The notes under the pieces: generated by a model
Database searches by the model: none
The model's input: the letters and a program-made list of their open reading frames with translations, nothing else
What the model was told of the DNA's origin: nothing
Program-made: the position numbers and the translations under genes
Assembly: GCA_024691125.1 (NCBI GenBank)
Contig: JAILNV010000095.1
Coordinates: 1 to 37,347 of the forward strand
Origin: Lachnospiraceae bacterium
GTDB taxonomy: Bacteria > Bacillota > Clostridia > Lachnospirales > Lachnospiraceae
DNA length: 37,347 nucleotides
Direction: 5' to 3'
Shown: piece after piece, positions 9,801 to 31,193 of the stretch
How the letters are laid out: the number at the start of each line of letters is the position of its first letter
How positions within the stretch are numbered: the first letter of the stretch is position 1

Positions 9801-11291
9801 TTAGTTCTTTTCATATCCGCAGAGCGTGTCGGTAACTGTTCTGAACGGCACTCCCTCTTTCTTAGCCACACCGGCTATATCGTCATATTCCCACTTCTTC
9901 CTTAATACCCCATAGCCTTCCGATACCTTGAGCCTCATTGTACCGTATGGTGTCGTTCTCTCCTCTATGCGGCGGGAAAGAGTGTAACGCGGGCAAATGT
10001 ACTCTCTTATGCCCAGGGTTGATGTATGTGCAAAGATAAGCCCTACCATCTTATCTTTATCTTCATTGCGGCATAGTACCTTAAGCTCCATGCCGGGTCT
10101 TGATTTCTTCATAAATACAGGAACCGTATAGGCCTCAAGCGCACCTGACTTAAGCAGTATATCAATTGCATATCCCATGTTCTCGCCTGTCATATCATCA
10201 ACATTGCAGACAAGCTCGGTGATCGTGCCTTCTGCCTCTTTTTTTACTGTTCCGTCCACGGATGCCATGTTTTTGCATGTCCCTGCCTTATCATTATTTC
10301 CGGAAACCGGTTCTCCAATAAAGGCTCTGACACAGTTAGCCTGCTCAAAGTCCTTCTTACCCATCCCGTAGCCTGCTGCCTGTATCTTCATTACAGGCAT
10401 ACTGCCGAACCGCGTTACATAATGCTTAAGCAGCGCAGCCCCCGTAGGAGTGCAGAGCTCACTTAATATATGCCCCTGATATATAGGAACATCCTTCAGT
10501 ATATATGCCGTCGCCGGCGCAGGTACCGGAAGTATGCCGTGCGCACAGTGTACATGACCGCCCCCGACATTTATAAAGGAGGCTTCTGTTATATCAGGTG
10601 CAAGCATATTTATAAGAAGACTGACAGCTGTTACATCTGCAACCGCATCCATGGTACCTACCTCGTGAAAATGGATTTCGGTTACAGGCATTCCGTGTGC
10701 GTGACTCTCCGCCTGCGCTATCAGGGTATAGACTTCCCGTGCATGTTCTTTAACTTCGGATGGAATGTTCAATCCGTTTATTATATGTTCTATATCATGA
10801 AGGCTTCTGTGAACATGGGAACGCGCACCGTGATGTCCTTCTCCGTGATGATGTTCGTGCCCGGCTTCATGATCATGCACGTGATCGTGGCTTCGCTCAT
10901 GATCATGTTCGTGTACGTGCTCATGGTCTCCGTGACTGTGTTCTTCATGTGCATGTTTATGTTCTTCATGTATATGATCGTGGATTTCATGTCCATGCCC
11001 GTGATCCTCATGCATATGGTCATGATGGTCATGCCCGTGACCGTCATGGCTGTGCGCATGGCCATGATGGGATGGCGCTTCCTCATGCCCATCTACCAGC
11101 ACCTTCATATGGGTACCTGTAATGCCGCATTTTACAGACTTCTCCTGGATTATCTTCACTCCCGGAATTCCGGCATTATTTATATCATCAATAAATCTTT
11201 TCTTATCTTCATCGTTAAGCAGTTCATATAATGCCGCAGCAAGCATATCACCTGCCGCTCCCATCGCAAGATCCAGATACAGTGTTTTCAT
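9801..11291 (-). CDS. larC: Nickel-pincer cofactor metallation protein LarC with His-rich insert
   Basis: LarC inserts nickel into pyridinium-3,5-bisthiocarboxylic acid mononucleotide in a CTP-dependent step, completing the cofactor of lactate racemase and relatives. The 496-residue product has the family start MKTLYLDLAMGAAGDM, the middle motif EIHFHEVGTMDAVAD, and the C-terminal part with VCNVDDMTGENMGYA and FMKKSRPGMELKVLCR. Residues of about 69-161 form a tract with about 40 histidines plus Asp and Glu, probably for Ni storage or delivery. N- and C-terminal halves are in one frame here; some homologues need a ribosomal frameshift. The ribosome site is GGGAGG. It follows larB by 55 bases and probably shares its transcript. 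Confidence 0.94.
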   Translation of the reverse strand: MKTLYLDLAMGAAGDMLAAALYELLNDEDKKRFIDDINNAGIPGVKIIQEKSVKCGITGTHMKVLVDGHEEAPSHHGHAHSHDGHGHDHHDHMHEDHGHGHEIHDHIHEEHKHAHEEHSHGDHEHVHEHDHERSHDHVHDHEAGHEHHHGEGHHGARSHVHRSLHDIEHIINGLNIPSEVKEHAREVYTLIAQAESHAHGMPVTEIHFHEVGTMDAVADVTAVSLLINMLAPDITEASFINVGGGHVHCAHGILPVPAPATAYILKDVPIYQGHILSELCTPTGAALLKHYVTRFGSMPVMKIQAAGYGMGKKDFEQANCVRAFIGEPVSGNNDKAGTCKNMASVDGTVKKEAEGTITELVCNVDDMTGENMGYAIDILLKSGALEAYTVPVFMKKSRPGMELKVLCRNEDKDKMVGLIFAHTSTLGIREYICPRYTLSRRIEERTTPYGTMRLKVSEGYGVLRKKWEYDDIAGVAKKEGVPFRTVTDTLCGYEKN

Positions 11292-11346
11292 AAGCTTCCT
11301 CCCTATGCCGGTTTACTGTTTTCATAATCTGCTTTACACTACTTTA

Positions 11347-12114
11347 TCATAAAGGGGTATCGCCTGACTTCTTTCCATGGTTTATCATGCTGGCGAGATA
11401 TCCTGCTCCGAAGCCGTTATCAATATTTACAACACTCACACCGGATGCGCAGGAATTAAGCATGGATAAAAGAGCCGACAGTCCGTTAAATGAAGCTCCG
11501 TAGCCGACGCTTGTCGGAACAGCGATCACAGGACAGTCGGCAAGTCCTCCGATCACGCTTGCAAGAGCTCCCTCCATTCCGGCGATCGCAATTATTACAT
11601 TGGCCTCCATTAACTCTTCCATATGAGACATAAGCCTGTGAAGTCCCGCCACACCCACATCATACAGGCGTATGACCTTATTTCCCAGAGCTTCTGCCGT
11701 AAGAGCGGCCTCTTCTGCCACGGGAATATCACTGGTTCCTCCTGTAGCAACAACAATGCTACCCGTTCCGTCGGGATCCGGCAGCCTTCCCACAGTAGCA
11801 AAAGCCGCTTCCTCATTGTAGCTTATCTCATATTTTTTCGCCAGTTCATCTGCCTTGGCTTTATCAATCCTGGTTATTATTACAGGCTCCTGTCCGTTAT
11901 TCACCATGGATCCGACTATAGACACTATTCTCTCAGCGCTCTTTCCGGCTCCGTATATTACCTCAGCCGCGCCCTGTCTGGTCCTCCTGTGCAGATCCAC
12001 CTTGGCAAAATCAATATCCTCGAAGGGTTCCTTCTTAAGGTTCAATAAAGCCTCATCTACAGATATCTTACCGTCTTTTACATCATTCAGTAGCTTTCTA
12101 GTATTCATACTCAT
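11347..12114 (-). CDS. larB: Pyridinium-3,5-biscarboxylic acid mononucleotide synthase LarB
   Basis: LarB carboxylates and hydrolyses nicotinic acid adenine dinucleotide, the first step of nickel-pincer nucleotide synthesis. The 255-residue product shows a characteristic N-terminal region (LNDVKDGKISVDEAL) and the PurE-like (AIRC) domain: VVATGGTSDIPVAEEAA, GVAGLHRL, AGMEGALASVIGGL and PTSVGYGASFNGLSALL. Its ATG overlaps the stop of the upstream Mur ligase gene by four bases (ATGA), and a second in-frame ATG lies two codons later. larC follows. LarE (sulfur donor) and LarA (racemase) are not in the window, so the rest of the pathway must lie elsewhere if it is functional. Confidence 0.95.
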   Translation of the reverse strand: MSMNTRKLLNDVKDGKISVDEALLNLKKEPFEDIDFAKVDLHRRTRQGAAEVIYGAGKSAERIVSIVGSMVNNGQEPVIITRIDKAKADELAKKYEISYNEEAAFATVGRLPDPDGTGSIVVATGGTSDIPVAEEAALTAEALGNKVIRLYDVGVAGLHRLMSHMEELMEANVIIAIAGMEGALASVIGGLADCPVIAVPTSVGYGASFNGLSALLSMLNSCASGVSVVNIDNGFGAGYLASMINHGKKSGDTPL

Positions 12115-13502: not shown

Positions 13503-13531
13503 TTGACTTTTATTTGTCTTTGAAATATATT
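13503..13531 (+). promoter_or_regulatory. Promoter of the ECF S-component gene
   Basis: TTGACT (13503-13508) and TATATT (13526-13531) have a 17-base spacer. The leader is about 63 bases, with no known riboswitch motif recognised. Confidence 0.7.
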
Positions 13532-13600
13532 GCATACATGTTCCGAAACCGGGTTACTATTCAGGGCAGACTCAATATACATATAGAAGGAGAACCGATC

Positions 13601-14101
13601 ATGACAGACGTTAAAACAAGAAATATGGTTCGTACGGCTATGTTTGCCGCACTTACATGCATAGCTACTTTCATAATAAAGATTCCTACACCCGGTACCG
13701 GGGGCTACATCCATCCGGGAGATGCTCTTGTTATCCTTTCGGGAATTTTTCTGGGACCCTTATACGGGGCCGCAGCTGCAGGTATTGGATCAGCCATGGC
13801 TGATATCCTCGGCGGATATTTCTTCTATGCGCCTGTAACATTCCTGATCAAGGGCATAATTGCTCTTGTATGCGGACAGATATTTAAATATTCGGTACTT
13901 AATATCACAAATCCAAGGGCAAAATGTATACTCTGCGGTCTGTTCTGTACGGGCTTTGTGGCATTCGGATATTTCCTGTTTGAACTGCTCATTTACGGAA
14001 GCGGTGCTATTGCAAGCGTACCTGCCAATCTTATACAGGGACTGTCAGGTCTGGTCATCTCGAATCTTTTATACGGATCCATGAAAAAAATCATCAAATG
14101 A
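13601..14101 (+). CDS. ECF transporter S component (substrate-binding membrane subunit)
   Basis: This is a 166-residue integral membrane protein of the small vitamin-uptake S-component type, working with a shared energising module (EcfA/A'/T) not present here. About five to six TM helices are visible. The start ATG at 13601 follows AAGGAG. The N-terminal MVRTAMFAALTCIATF, then GGYIHPGDALVILSGIFLG and AAAAGIGSAMADILGGY, are typical of the COG4720/PF07155-like group (family name from memory). The substrate cannot be read. The following cobS gene hints at a cobalamin precursor, and other possibilities are pyridoxine, thiamine precursors or niacin. It is divergent from the lar operon. Confidence 0.85.
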   Translation: MTDVKTRNMVRTAMFAALTCIATFIIKIPTPGTGGYIHPGDALVILSGIFLGPLYGAAAAGIGSAMADILGGYFFYAPVTFLIKGIIALVCGQIFKYSVLNITNPRAKCILCGLFCTGFVAFGYFLFELLIYGSGAIASVPANLIQGLSGLVISNLLYGSMKKIIK

Positions 14102-14102
14102 C

Positions 14103-14131
14103 TTGCAATACGATACCACATATGGTAAAAT
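14103..14131 (+). promoter_or_regulatory. Promoter of the 14.1-kb small RNA
   Basis: TTGCAA (14103-14108) and TAAAAT (14126-14131) have an exact 17-base spacer and start one base after the ECF gene stop. The predicted transcription start is near 14138. Confidence 0.75.
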
Positions 14132-14137
14132 ACGCTT

Positions 14138-14269
14138 GTCTTGTTACAAAATCTTGTGGTTTCACCTCCTTGTATAAACCTCAAGATTTCCCCACAATAT
14201 GGCAAGAGTTACTTACCCCCTAGGTATCCTTGCTATAAGAGGACTATCACATCTGTGGTAGTTCTTTTT
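14138..14269 (+). ncRNA. Candidate small RNA with anti-Shine-Dalgarno loop
   Basis: A unit of about 130 bases has its own promoter and terminator and no credible reading frame. Hairpin 1: AAATCTTG (14149-14156) pairs with CAAGATTT (14182-14189), then after a T-T mismatch GGTTT (14158-14162) pairs with AAACC (14176-14180). Its 13-base loop (14163-14175) is CACCTCCTTGTAT, and TCACCTCCTT (14162-14171) equals the 3-prime end of 16S rRNA. Hairpin 2: GCAAG (14202-14206) with CTTGC, inner TACC/GGTA, and a C-rich loop CCCTA. Hairpin 3 is the terminator. C-rich loops that pair with ribosome sites are known in Gram-positive regulators such as RsaE. The family is not identified. A cis-acting leader for cobS is the alternative. 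Confidence 0.65.
14240..14269 (+). terminator. Rho-independent terminator of the small RNA
   Basis: AGGACTATCACA (14240-14251) pairs with TGTGGTAGTTCT (14254-14265): 12 pairs with two G-U wobbles and a two-base loop, followed by a T run to 14269. Confidence 0.85.
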
Positions 14270-14347
14270 ATATACAAAACATAAAGACAGAAATATTCCA
14301 AAATATATTAGTCCACCGAACTCATATGAAAATGGCAGGTTAACACT

Positions 14348-15133
14348 ATGTTCAGGTCAATTGCGATAGTCTTTTCAACATATTCAATAATTCCCATGCC
14401 GATATTTAAATGGAAGGAAGAAGATCTAAGATACAGCATGTGTGCATTTCCTTTAGTCGGTCTTGTGCTTGCCGCTATTTCATATGGTGCTTACAGTCTG
14501 CTTCTCTGTCTTGGAGCCGGCAACCTTCTTATTGCAGGCATTATGACGATCCTTCCTCTAATCATCACGGGAGGTATCCATATGGACGGTTATATGGATA
14601 CAATGGATGCCCTGTGTTCTTACGGGAGCAGAGAAAAAAAGCTTGAAATCCTCAAAGATCCTCATATAGGGGCTTTCGCGGTTATCCATGCGATCATATA
14701 TACAGTAACGGCTCTGTCCCTGTGGAGTGAGCTTATCAGACTTGATATTGAAGGTTATATGGGAAATATGTTATTCTGTTTAGTAATGGCGGGATACGTA
14801 ATGTCCAGGACTCTGTCGGCTATATCCGTCTTAAGCTTTAAGAAGGCTAAGGATAACGGAATGGTAAGCGATCTTTCCAAAGCCCAGGGGACAAAATGCC
14901 GGTTGATCGTTGCAGCAATCCTGATTCTGCTTATCGTTTTATTGTGTGTTTTTTACGGGATATATTCCTTATGTGCCGTCATTCCGGCTATATCGGTATT
15001 CCTGTTATACAGAAGAATGTCTTACAGAAGATTCGGAGGTATCACAGGTGATATTGCAGGGTGGTTCCTTCAGCTCTGTGAACTGTCAGTGCTGTTTACA
15101 ACGGTTATTACCGCTATGATATATAAGCTTTAA
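14348..15133 (+). CDS. cobS: Adenosylcobinamide-GDP ribazoletransferase (cobalamin synthase) CobS
   Basis: CobS joins adenosylcobinamide-GDP with alpha-ribazole (phosphate) to form adenosylcobalamin (phosphate), the last assembly step, at the membrane. The 261-residue product has several TM helices and the conserved acidic motif GGIHMDGYMDTMDAL, with a following KDPHIGAFAV segment. The start ATG at 14348 has only a weak AGG upstream, and the gene lies about 80 bases past the small-RNA terminator. cobT, which makes the alpha-ribazole phosphate it uses, is about 6 kb away on the other strand. No cobalamin riboswitch box was recognised upstream. Confidence 0.94.
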   Translation: MFRSIAIVFSTYSIIPMPIFKWKEEDLRYSMCAFPLVGLVLAAISYGAYSLLLCLGAGNLLIAGIMTILPLIITGGIHMDGYMDTMDALCSYGSREKKLEILKDPHIGAFAVIHAIIYTVTALSLWSELIRLDIEGYMGNMLFCLVMAGYVMSRTLSAISVLSFKKAKDNGMVSDLSKAQGTKCRLIVAAILILLIVLLCVFYGIYSLCAVIPAISVFLLYRRMSYRRFGGITGDIAGWFLQLCELSVLFTTVITAMIYKL

Positions 15134-15180
15134 CCGTCTCAGACAGTTTCCTCCTGACCGGTATTTAAAAGGTGATCGTT

Positions 15181-16998
15181 ATGGAAAGTTCAATGTATGT
15201 ATGCAGAAGCTGCAAAAGAATATTTAAGCTTAAAGGAAACAATAAACGTGCCAAATGCACTCATTGTGACAATGTTTTCCTTATTGATATGCATATAAGT
15301 CTTGAGGACTGGCAAAGCAGCAGTAAGGAAGAACGCGGCAGACGTATTCATAAGTATATTAAGGAAAGTGAAAAGAAAGAACAGGAATCAGAAGATACTA
15401 AACCCGCAGAGGATATAAAATCCGCGGAAGATACGAAAAACACGGAAGATATCGTAGTTTCAGATAATACCGGGGTCTCAGATAATACCGGCACATCGGA
15501 AGATATCAAACCCACGGAAAATAGTGTGGCTTCGGATAATACTGAAGATTCAGATGATACCGGAGCTTCGTACGATACTGAGGCTTCAGATGATACCGTA
15601 ACTTCAGATGATTTCGAGGCTTCAGACGATACCAAGTCCTCAGAGAATACCGGAATTTCAGATAATTCCGAGGCTTCAGATGATATCGGGATTTCTGATG
15701 ATGCCGGGACTTCAGATGATATCGGGAATTCAGATAATATTACAGACGAAGATGATTCCGAAAGCGAAGAAGAAAAACCCTCAGAAGAAGTTTTAAATGC
15801 ACCTTCAAATGCAGATTCTAAATCCGGAGCGGAAAGCTTTGATTTCAGTTTCGAAGAAGAGAGTGAGAGCGATCTTCTGGAATTCGGTTTCGGTGTCGGT
15901 GCATCTAATTCCGGCAGCTTCAGTTTTAATCCCGATGATAACGGATCTACCGGAAATAAGCAGTTTGAATTCGAATTCGAAGAAGATGAAAGCGGGCTGT
16001 TTGATTTCTTACCCGAGGATAACTCCGGCTCTGAACCCACTGCTCAGACCGTATCCGATCCCATTGCAGATGAACCTGTTTCAGAAGCCTTAAACGAATC
16101 CATTCCATCTGAAGACAAAACGTTTGTTTCAGAAGAAACAGCAAATACTATTAAATCTGTAGTTGCACAGGAAGCTCTGAATGAATCATCTGACGGAACT
16201 GAAGCGCAGGTTCTGCAGGAATCTGTACCGGCAGATGAAACAGCAGTATTTGATACAGAAGATGACATTTCAGAATCTCCTGTAAGAGGAAATGCCCTTA
16301 AGCCTGAAGCTTCAGAGCATGCAGCAAAGCTGGAAGAACATAATTCAGATAATGATCTGTTCTATTTCGGTGACAGTGATAACGACAATACCGACAATAC
16401 CGATATTTATATAGATATTCCTAAATCCTCCGTTTTCTCGACAGAAGCATCGGATGAGACTTTAAAGCCTCTGTATTTGCCTGCTGAAGATGAGGAAGCT
16501 TATACGGAACCTGAGATTTTACCTGTTGATGATGAGGAAGACAGGGAAGAAGCGTTGGATCCTTCAGTTCCGGCTGCCGAAGCGGAAGAAGCAGTATCCG
16601 AAATGGAGAAGACGATGGACGCACCCGCTCCTGCTCCGAAAATCAGGGAAATCGTATCCGAAACCGGCAGTGACACAGGCGGCAGTGACATAGGCAATGC
16701 TGCATCAGACAGAACAAAGGATAATACTTCAAATGATAATCCCGACAAAACAGCAAAAGGAAGCACTGTAGTCAACGAATATCATTATGAATACAAAACA
16801 GGAAGTATCTTCCTTAAGCGTCTGTTCAGCGGCATCGGTATGGCATCGGGACTGACGATCCTTGCCCTTGGCGCATTTGCCCTAAAGCTTCAGGAAGATG
16901 CATTATCCATATCATCTATGGGAATACTGTTTGCGATGTGTATCGGATGCGCCATACTCAGTTACTTTGGATGTAAGCTTGGAGAGACTCTGGAATAA
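15181..16998 (+). CDS. Zinc-ribbon, acidic hexapeptide-repeat membrane protein
   Basis: This is a 605-residue protein of unknown function. Residues 8-29 form a CxxC-x14-CxxC zinc ribbon (Cys8, 11, 26, 29). After a charged helix come 16 tandem hexapeptides of the form S-D-D/N-T-x-x (DNA 15460-15747). A long Asp/Glu/Ser-rich disordered region follows, and two TM helices lie near the C-terminus (about 550-572 and 580-600). The ATG at 15181 has AAAGGTG upstream. A GTG three codons earlier is less likely. The ribbon and the acidic region should be cytoplasmic if the TM pair forms a hairpin. It follows cobS by 47 bases, perhaps on the same transcript. Repeats of this type are prone to length changes between strains. 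Confidence 0.8.
   Translation: MESSMYVCRSCKRIFKLKGNNKRAKCTHCDNVFLIDMHISLEDWQSSSKEERGRRIHKYIKESEKKEQESEDTKPAEDIKSAEDTKNTEDIVVSDNTGVSDNTGTSEDIKPTENSVASDNTEDSDDTGASYDTEASDDTVTSDDFEASDDTKSSENTGISDNSEASDDIGISDDAGTSDDIGNSDNITDEDDSESEEEKPSEEVLNAPSNADSKSGAESFDFSFEEESESDLLEFGFGVGASNSGSFSFNPDDNGSTGNKQFEFEFEEDESGLFDFLPEDNSGSEPTAQTVSDPIADEPVSEALNESIPSEDKTFVSEETANTIKSVVAQEALNESSDGTEAQVLQESVPADETAVFDTEDDISESPVRGNALKPEASEHAAKLEEHNSDNDLFYFGDSDNDNTDNTDIYIDIPKSSVFSTEASDETLKPLYLPAEDEEAYTEPEILPVDDEEDREEALDPSVPAAEAEEAVSEMEKTMDAPAPAPKIREIVSETGSDTGGSDIGNAASDRTKDNTSNDNPDKTAKGSTVVNEYHYEYKTGSIFLKRLFSGIGMASGLTILALGAFALKLQEDALSISSMGILFAMCIGCAILSYFGCKLGETLE
15460..15747 (+). repeat. Tandem 18-bp coding repeats (16 hexapeptide units)
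   Basis: Sixteen degenerate units of 18 bases encode S-D-[DN]-[TI]-x-x. Units diverge by synonymous and non-synonymous changes, so this is an old minisatellite rather than a recent expansion. Confidence 0.8.
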
Positions 16999-30260: not shown

Positions 30261-31193
30261 CTAGGTAAACGAGATTACCTCCTCCTTGGGTTTTCCCGTA
30301 GGTTCGATACTTATAGCCTGTAAGACCGGCCCTTCCTTGCCGTAGTCATCGAAATACTCGATGTTTACTTTGGCCTTTACCTTTATATACTGCCGGTTGA
30401 CAAGCTCATCTTCCTTATCATATTTACATGCATATCCGAGGAAGGCTATATCTTCGGCACAGCATGTCATGGCCATCCTTCCGGGAACGAAATAGCCCTT
30501 GGGGAACTGCGGCGGATGAAGCACCATTCCTGTGTATTCGATGGTACGCCCCTCGTATCTGTCCATGTTATCAAGGGCATCCAGATACCATACTCCATAT
30601 CCCGTATCGTCAAGCACTATCGGATCCTTCGTAAGATCATAGGGCAGATCCTCTTCAAGGGTCACGTTCATCTCCCCGTCCTTGTTCTCGAAGATAATAT
30701 CTGCCCGCTGATTTAAAGCCTTGATATTTCTCTTATATGAAGCGATCTTTTCCTCCAGCCCGTCACAGCGGTTCATTATGATAAGCTCCGAGCCTCTTAT
30801 CTGCTCTGCCAGCAATGACTTCATATTGGTGAAATATGATTCGAAGGTAGCTCCGTTGATCATAGTGATCTGCTGCTCCACCTTCCATGTCCATGGCAGC
30901 TTATGATTCTTAAGTATCCACATTCCGTTGAACTCGATAACTATACGGCCGGGCTTGTACTTCTTCTCAAGCTCTGAAAGCTTCTTTGTCGTGAAATCAT
31001 CCTCATCATCGATGATTTCCATTATGGTACGTGTTCTCTCAAGAACCTTGGGCTCGTATTCCTTCTCACCCTCTTCGCAGACTATAAGAAGCGTAGTCTG
31101 GCGGCTCTGAAAGTATGGTTGTGTTATTGTATAATTTATGAAGTCGGTTTTTCCACTGTCAAGAAAACCGTTGATTATAAATACTGAGGTCAT
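30261..31193 (-). CDS. CobW-like P-loop NTPase lacking the metal motif
   Basis: This 310-residue protein belongs to the COG0523/CobW neighbourhood. The P-loop GFLDSGKT is at residues 9-16. A switch-like segment IVIEFNGMW and a nucleotide-base motif IIMNRCDG (for NKxD) follow. A C-terminal domain of about 100 residues starts near IEYTGMVLHPPQFPKG and resembles the DUF1980/TIGR03943 C-terminal region often found with such GTPases. The CxCC metal-binding motif of CobW-type chaperones is absent. The ribosome site is GGGAGG. It follows a complete CobW GTPase gene by 60 bases, which suggests joint work in metal or cofactor delivery; the metal is unknown. Confidence 0.78.
   Translation of the reverse strand: MTSVFIINGFLDSGKTDFINYTITQPYFQSRQTTLLIVCEEGEKEYEPKVLERTRTIMEIIDDEDDFTTKKLSELEKKYKPGRIVIEFNGMWILKNHKLPWTWKVEQQITMINGATFESYFTNMKSLLAEQIRGSELIIMNRCDGLEEKIASYKRNIKALNQRADIIFENKDGEMNVTLEEDLPYDLTKDPIVLDDTGYGVWYLDALDNMDRYEGRTIEYTGMVLHPPQFPKGYFVPGRMAMTCCAEDIAFLGYACKYDKEDELVNRQYIKVKAKVNIEYFDDYGKEGPVLQAISIEPTGKPKEEVISFT

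Follow-up and report, generated by a model that had tools for sequence, protein, structure and literature searches.

A probable small regulatory RNA with an anti-Shine–Dalgarno sequence in a hairpin loop from a few Lachnospiraceae

The DNA under study is a stretch of 37,347 nucleotides from a Lachnospiraceae bacterium (the window). Between the gene for an ECF S component (ecfS) and cobS, positions 14103–14269 hold a predicted RNA unit consisting of a promoter, a 132-nt three-hairpin stretch, and a U-tailed terminator (Table 1). The stop codon of ecfS and the −35 box of the promoter are one base apart. The initial annotation, made from the letters of the window, had described a stand-alone noncoding RNA that runs from its own promoter to its own terminator and carries an anti-Shine–Dalgarno (anti-SD) sequence in a loop. 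Copies in changed gene contexts, the predicted fold, and the absence of a conserved reading frame bear this description out. Its parts were also recovered: the TTGCAA-17-TAAAAT promoter is present, with a spacing that recurs in all five copies that we found; the first hairpin, with 8+5 pairs around a mismatch and UCACCUCCUU in its loop region, lies where it was described; the C-rich loop of the second hairpin is a CCCCC; and the fold contains a terminator hairpin with a U tail that ends at 14269. To this description we add a third C-run, situated in the linker (14190–14193), and a variant motif, UCAUCUCCUU, in one of the five copies.

Table 1. Predicted RNA unit in window coordinates, and gene contexts of its five copies
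Feature	Position or locus	Strand	Basis or occurrence
Sigma-70-type promoter TTGCAA-17-TAAAAT, TGG 5′ of the −10	14103–14131	+	same spacing in 5/5 copies
−35 box TTGCAA	14103–14108		spacer to −10, 17 nt
−10 box TAAAAT	14126–14131
Predicted small RNA, 132 nt	14138–14269	+	start inferred from −10 and onset of invariant block
Hairpin 1, 8+5 pairs flanking a U-U mismatch	14149–14189	+	fold
Anti-SD motif UCACCUCCUU in loop 1 (putative seed 1)	14162–14171	+	exact in 4/5 copies
CCCC within linker UUUCCCCAC (putative seed 2)	14190–14193	+	invariant in 5/5 copies
Hairpin 2, apical stem variable with compensation	14198–14237	+	fold, copy comparison
CCCCC loop of hairpin 2 (putative seed 3)	14216–14220	+	CCCCC in 4/5 copies, UCCCC in 1/5
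Intrinsic terminator hairpin, 13 pairs, loop 14251–14254, U tail	14238–14269	+	fold; stem invariant
ecfS / cobS context	window and L002		2 copies
Context of a gene without Pfam match / DUF445	L003		1 copy
Cation efflux / glutamine synthetase context	L004, L005		2 copies

Taken alone the promoter is uninformative, as a scan of 13700–14700 returned 3 promoter-like sites with 3.0 expected. Its weight comes from the copies in relatives: the layout TTG..., a 17-nt spacer, and TA...T is common to all five, the window included. A palindrome in the promoter region, TACCACATATGGTA, was dropped as a candidate feature because it is not kept in L003–L005. The predicted fold of the RNA has an energy of −44.2 kcal/mol (z −6.5), which none of 200 shuffled sequences equaled. 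In this fold the UCACCUCCUU motif has a mean unpaired probability of 0.75–0.77, with the CUCC core mostly open and the first U mostly paired (0.1–0.2). The linker CCCC is predicted to be unpaired at 1.0, flanked by a preceding UUU that is paired in all five copies and a following AC that is paired in three of them, and the four C common to the loops of hairpin 2 are likewise predicted to be unpaired at 1.0. The terminator was missed by a terminator scan with a stricter loop rule but found by the fold; its loop occurs in four different forms among the five copies (AUCU, AUUU, GUAA, or GAAA), none with a C-run. The UCACCUCCUU motif, which we take to equal the 3′ tail of 16S rRNA, is as a 10-mer not beyond chance, with 0.13 occurrences expected in the 37 kb window and a presence in 11 of 100 shuffles, so that its significance comes from its location inside a conserved RNA.

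Three gene neighborhoods harbor the five copies; across them, promoter, RNA, and terminator align whereas the flanks do not. Pfam was run on L004, and the context of L005 was assigned from its similar sequence. In the window, the RNA sits between ecfS and cobS with one strand used throughout and a terminator at its end, an arrangement that suits a cis element, either a leader or attenuator of cobS, as the initial annotation had entertained, or simply a terminator for the gene upstream. However, the downstream gene is cobS in two copies, DUF445 in one, and glutamine synthetase in two, which leaves three of five copies followed by something other than cobS, and the RNA has a conserved promoter of its own. 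Moreover, among the 11 of 13 ecfS loci for which we surveyed the downstream side, two have the RNA followed by cobS, and nine have other sequence and no such RNA. The survey and the changing contexts both argue against a cobS leader. Given that the context changes between copies, the cis-element reading is largely refuted already, and we consider it very unlikely. By sequence and by this change of context, the predicted unit has its own promoter and terminator, as the class of C-rich or anti-SD small RNAs (sRNAs) does.

Eight of the nine ecfS loci without the RNA have a converging gene of one family, presumably a G3E-type GTPase, which is the immediate neighbor in six and is separated from ecfS by one small gene in two. 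The window differs from these eight in that ecfS is followed by the sRNA and cobS (13514–15133), suggesting that the locus was rearranged; a gene resembling the converging GTPase-like gene starts at 31193 (−) in the window. Two other parts of the window caught our attention. At 15172–16998 lies the gene for a 608-aa protein with a zinc-ribbon-like CxxC...CxxC start and a long acidic part rich in Ser, Asp, and Thr, for which Pfam gave no match at E ≤ 0.001. The region 9801–12114 encodes a nickel-insertion protein with a long insert rich in His, Asp, and Glu, beside an AIR-carboxylase-domain protein and a Mur ligase; we assume that the first of these is LarC-like and the AIR-carboxylase-domain neighbor LarB-like.

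To judge the conservation of the RNA, we set it against fourfold-degenerate sites of rpoB. Between lineages the sRNA is 84.2–88.0% identical vs 44.4–51.5% at these sites, and within two close pairs the values are 97.0 vs 68.7% and 100 vs 87.5%. This far greater likeness indicates that the sRNA is under selection. Recent transfer between lineages could also explain it; the diverged promoters and the clustering of the changes count against such transfer. Most of these changes map to three places: the apex of hairpin 2, the loop of the terminator, and loop 1 on its 3′ side. The one copy without the exact anti-SD motif (L003) differs from it by a single C-to-U change and also has a 1-nt deletion at the mismatch of hairpin 1. 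Conservation of the motif is matched by that of the loop and stem bases on its 5′ side. A chance motif was ruled out, given that the RNA is conserved in three contexts whereas synonymous sites have diverged far more. Conserved C-rich and anti-SD motifs in unpaired regions, a mark of the sRNA class named above, are found here, the unpaired state being a prediction.

Compensatory stem changes among relatives, which the initial annotation had put forward as a check, occur in the apical stem of hairpin 2. Hairpins 1 and 3 hardly vary, so that the evidence for their pairing is energetic rather than covariational. Counted outward from the loop, the first five pairs of hairpin 2 are standard in all lineages. 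At pairs 1, 4, and 5, at least one lineage has substitutions on both sides with pairing and the NCCCC loop kept, and pair 5 appears as A-U, U-A, and C-G, in an alignment anchored by hand on the loop that compares three independent lineages plus near copies. In a MAFFT alignment, a double change is seen at one of 46 pairs, and four pairs look broken in L004 and L005.

The same comparison speaks to the possibility that the locus is a short peptide gene. A 20-codon ATG frame begins at 14199 in three of five copies, and all five have a frame of 17–30 codons that starts with TTG at transcript position 33. Neither frame is preceded by a Shine–Dalgarno (SD) sequence, however; the ATG frame is not listed in L004 and L005, which have a 1-nt insertion, and a 1-nt deletion in L003 shifts the TTG frame. 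The initial annotation had seen no reading frame in the unit; none is conserved across the five copies, and we regard a peptide gene as extremely unlikely. The compared sequences show a stand-alone unit under selection that lacks a conserved frame and retains its C-runs, one of which is borne by a covarying stem.

A DNA search located the sRNA unit in 5 of 99 genomes, its own included, all of one genus. A covariance model (R1) recovered the same 5 among 37 genus members at E ≤ 1e-34 and gave weak matches in 5 further genomes of the genus at E 0.002–0.34. With a model built without the terminator (R2), the same 5 of 37 were followed by 3 genomes at E 0.6–2.8. Across the family (397 genomes), three genomes matched at E ≤ 0.001, namely, the strong match of the genome itself and two weak ones (33.0 and 27.4 bits). 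A covariance search across Lachnospiraceae and a comparison with Rfam had both been suggested with the initial annotation; the former produced strong matches only in the five carriers, and the latter no matching family (Rfam 15: no match at gathering score over the window and none at E ≤ 10 over 14000–14400). The weak covariance matches were rejected as distant homologues, as the matching in the inspected alignments comes from the terminator or from generic hairpins, and CAYCTCC or CTCCTT occurs in none of 10 weakly matched stretches. One weak R1 match, in genome G029 (L043, 1501–1625, +), carries a linker-like TTTCCCCACAA plus a separate CCTCC and is probably due to chance. A pattern scan of 84,980 named genomes, with a pattern so exact and narrow that diverged relatives could escape it, returned only four loci, all from metagenome-assembled Lachnospiraceae (one from goat rumen); these appear to be L002–L005.

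An rpoB search gave a match in 27 of 30 genomes, and in a tree of 25, with two partial sequences excluded, the five carriers and four noncarriers form one supported group of nine. Two changes are enough to explain the carrier pattern on this tree, a number as low as in 1 of 500 label shuffles, and the sRNA may have a single origin among the carriers. In three genomes that stand outside this tree (G003, G028, and G027), the ECF protein reaches 70–76%, vs at most 65% for the carriers G012, G022, and G036, and these searches did not find the sRNA in them. The carrier pattern may therefore be patchier, and several of the searched genomes are incomplete. In these searches the family is restricted to one clade.

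We also considered a phage origin, for which a pattern scan of IMG/VR returned six contigs. This candidate was rejected: inspection by eye showed that the matches are complementary to the ribosome site that precedes a phage gene, R1 aligned to these contigs over only 25–29 positions at 10–11 bits, and blastn against phage and plasmid records gave no match. In the six contigs (L052–L057), the complement of the phage ribosome site with its flanks, AAGGAGGTGAAACC, matches hairpin 1 over 25–29 positions. This case illustrates that anti-SD hairpin patterns can arise as the antisense of ribosome sites.

We conclude that the locus very probably encodes a genuine small regulatory RNA that is not yet catalogued, occurs in a few Lachnospiraceae, and has an anti-SD sequence in a hairpin loop. 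The reading that we favor, and consider likely, is a trans-acting sRNA of about 132 nt that uses three C-rich seeds to silence chosen mRNAs at their SD regions. An RNA of this length would be delimited by its own promoter and terminator and would expose C-rich stretches in loop 1 (UCACCUCCUU), the linker (CCCC), and loop 2 (NCCCC). These stretches would pair in trans with the G-rich SD regions of some mRNAs and block ribosome binding, so that the mRNA would be silenced, and the bases that flank the SD core would supply target selectivity. Pairing with SD regions is likewise the mode of LhrC in Listeria, RoxS and FsrA in Bacillus, and the rhizobial NfeR1, of which LhrC and NfeR1 serve as precedents for the mechanism. 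Transcription, pairing in the cell, silencing, and the identity of targets are in this account what we infer. The sRNA may act without Hfq: a search for this protein found it in none of nine genomes, while the same search was positive in 5 of 14 controls including E. coli and B. subtilis. A strongly folded, Hfq-free sRNA is plausible on these grounds.

To estimate pairing at ribosome sites, we sampled about 267 kb of the 3.52 Mb genome, window included, which provided 194 translation starts. Loop 1 pairs at these starts with a mean of −9.7 kcal/mol vs −6.4 inside genes, and the 16S tail with −9.9 vs −6.2, the gene starts having been chosen by best SD, which raises the pairing of both. The linker and loop 2 pair weakly, with −6.0 and −6.2 kcal/mol, respectively, at starts vs −4.2 and −4.5 kcal/mol inside genes. 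From its pairing energies at starts, loop 1 is predicted to be able to mask ribosome sites. The 10-nt site AAGGAGGTGA occurs 26 times in the five genomes, four of these being the sRNA itself, vs 52 times for the reversed control. Among 19 viewed loci around this site, several turned out to be normal ribosome sites that belong to unrelated genes. One gene with the full site as its ribosome site, near 1952 (+) in L128, is the second-best partner of loop 1 in the sample; we take it to be an IstB-like IS21 helper.

Two candidate targets were followed. The first, by eye an ABC permease gene with a 10-nt site, is present in two of five carriers and two of four noncarriers, and the site is weaker in the noncarriers, with pairing of −12.9 and −10.8 there vs −19.3. 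The second is a membrane-protein-like gene whose start pairs with loop 1 at −18.5 vs −12.5 with the 16S tail; it is present in one of five carriers and one of four noncarriers, and the noncarrier has the same start region. Neither candidate is evidence for a conserved target.

Across the 194 start regions, loop 1 and the 16S tail have similar mean pairing energies, and over 10 nt loop 1 is taken to be identical to that tail in four of five copies. Both observations would also suit a global competitor, in which a near copy of the 16S tail titrates strong SD sequences and lowers initiation on many mRNAs under some stress. Such a role is improbable in our judgment, because the sequence on the 5′ side of the motif, in both loop and stem, is equally conserved, which suggests that specificity or structure is wanted, the C-runs of the linker and loop 2 do not copy the 16S tail, the core is altered in one copy (UCAUCUCC), and full-length AAGGAGGTGA sites are few. 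We likewise give little credence to a 16S-tail mimic with three seeds that acts, in competition with the 30S subunit at strong SD sites transcriptome-wide, as a lineage-specific brake on translation initiation. The C-runs could instead bind a protein, as such runs may do, or titrate a G-rich sRNA rather than pair with mRNAs. Sponge RNAs that pair with C-rich sRNAs exist, with RosA in Bacillus as an example (excerpt of PMC8216469). The anti-SD sequence, however, fits SD pairing directly, and we see a protein-binding or sponge function as quite unlikely.

Silencing of chosen mRNAs by a trans-acting sRNA would most likely make this a new clade-restricted sRNA family with a mechanism of an already known kind. 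Among open-licence papers we found none on sRNAs in Lachnospiraceae, and the best 10 of 197 matches in a search on related genera included none on this family, as they concerned other bacteria or archaea. The RNA would add an sRNA family in Lachnospiraceae. It would also suggest a renewed emergence, in a clade where our search detected no Hfq, of the multiseed anti-SD design already described in Listeria, Bacillus, and rhizobia, and it would provide a clear test case for how a nearly universal anti-SD seed gains target specificity.

The initial annotation had not recognized the architecture, and the missing Rfam match agrees with this, but sRNAs that carry anti-SD or C-rich sequence in stem-loops or single strands follow an established design. 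LhrC of Listeria has an Rfam entry. As described in the excerpt of PMC4132741, LhrC shares with our sRNA a low-GC host, pairing at SD regions, and a dispensable Hfq; it differs in having five copies and its third motif in the terminator loop, whereas we found one copy per genome with the third motif in hairpin 2. The LhrC arrangement of CUCCC in loop A, linker, and terminator loop is not found here, the terminator loops being without a C-run. The "cuckoo" RNAs αr14/NfeR1 (excerpt of PMC10746234) are similar in their three hairpins, an unpaired anti-SD motif, stems that vary while motifs are kept, and a sigma-70-type promoter. According to the same excerpt, αr14 has variable stems and CCUCCUCCC in each of its three hairpins, and NfeR1 silences independently of Hfq at the translation start. 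In contrast to these three identical motifs from alphaproteobacteria, our sRNA has three different C-rich motifs and comes from a different phylum; its third hairpin is a terminator without C-run, and its sequence does not contain CCUCCUCCC in each of the three hairpins. RoxS, FsrA, and CsfG of Bacillus also have several C-rich regions, which they use for mRNA pairing (excerpt of PMC8216469); our sRNA has no Rfam match. The streptococcal csRNAs (excerpt of PMC3091779) resemble it in their unpaired anti-SD stretches, terminator hairpin, and own promoters, but their anti-SD sequences lie mostly between hairpins, together with an anti-start-codon sequence and under CiaR control, whereas ours lies in loop 1. 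PmaR, a C-rich-loop sRNA of Agrobacterium, mostly activates and mostly binds away from ribosome sites (excerpt of PMC6234868), so that a C-rich loop alone is no proof of silencing at SD regions. By sequence, the sRNA falls outside every family tested, and among the kinds of sRNA compared it looks like the silencing kind.
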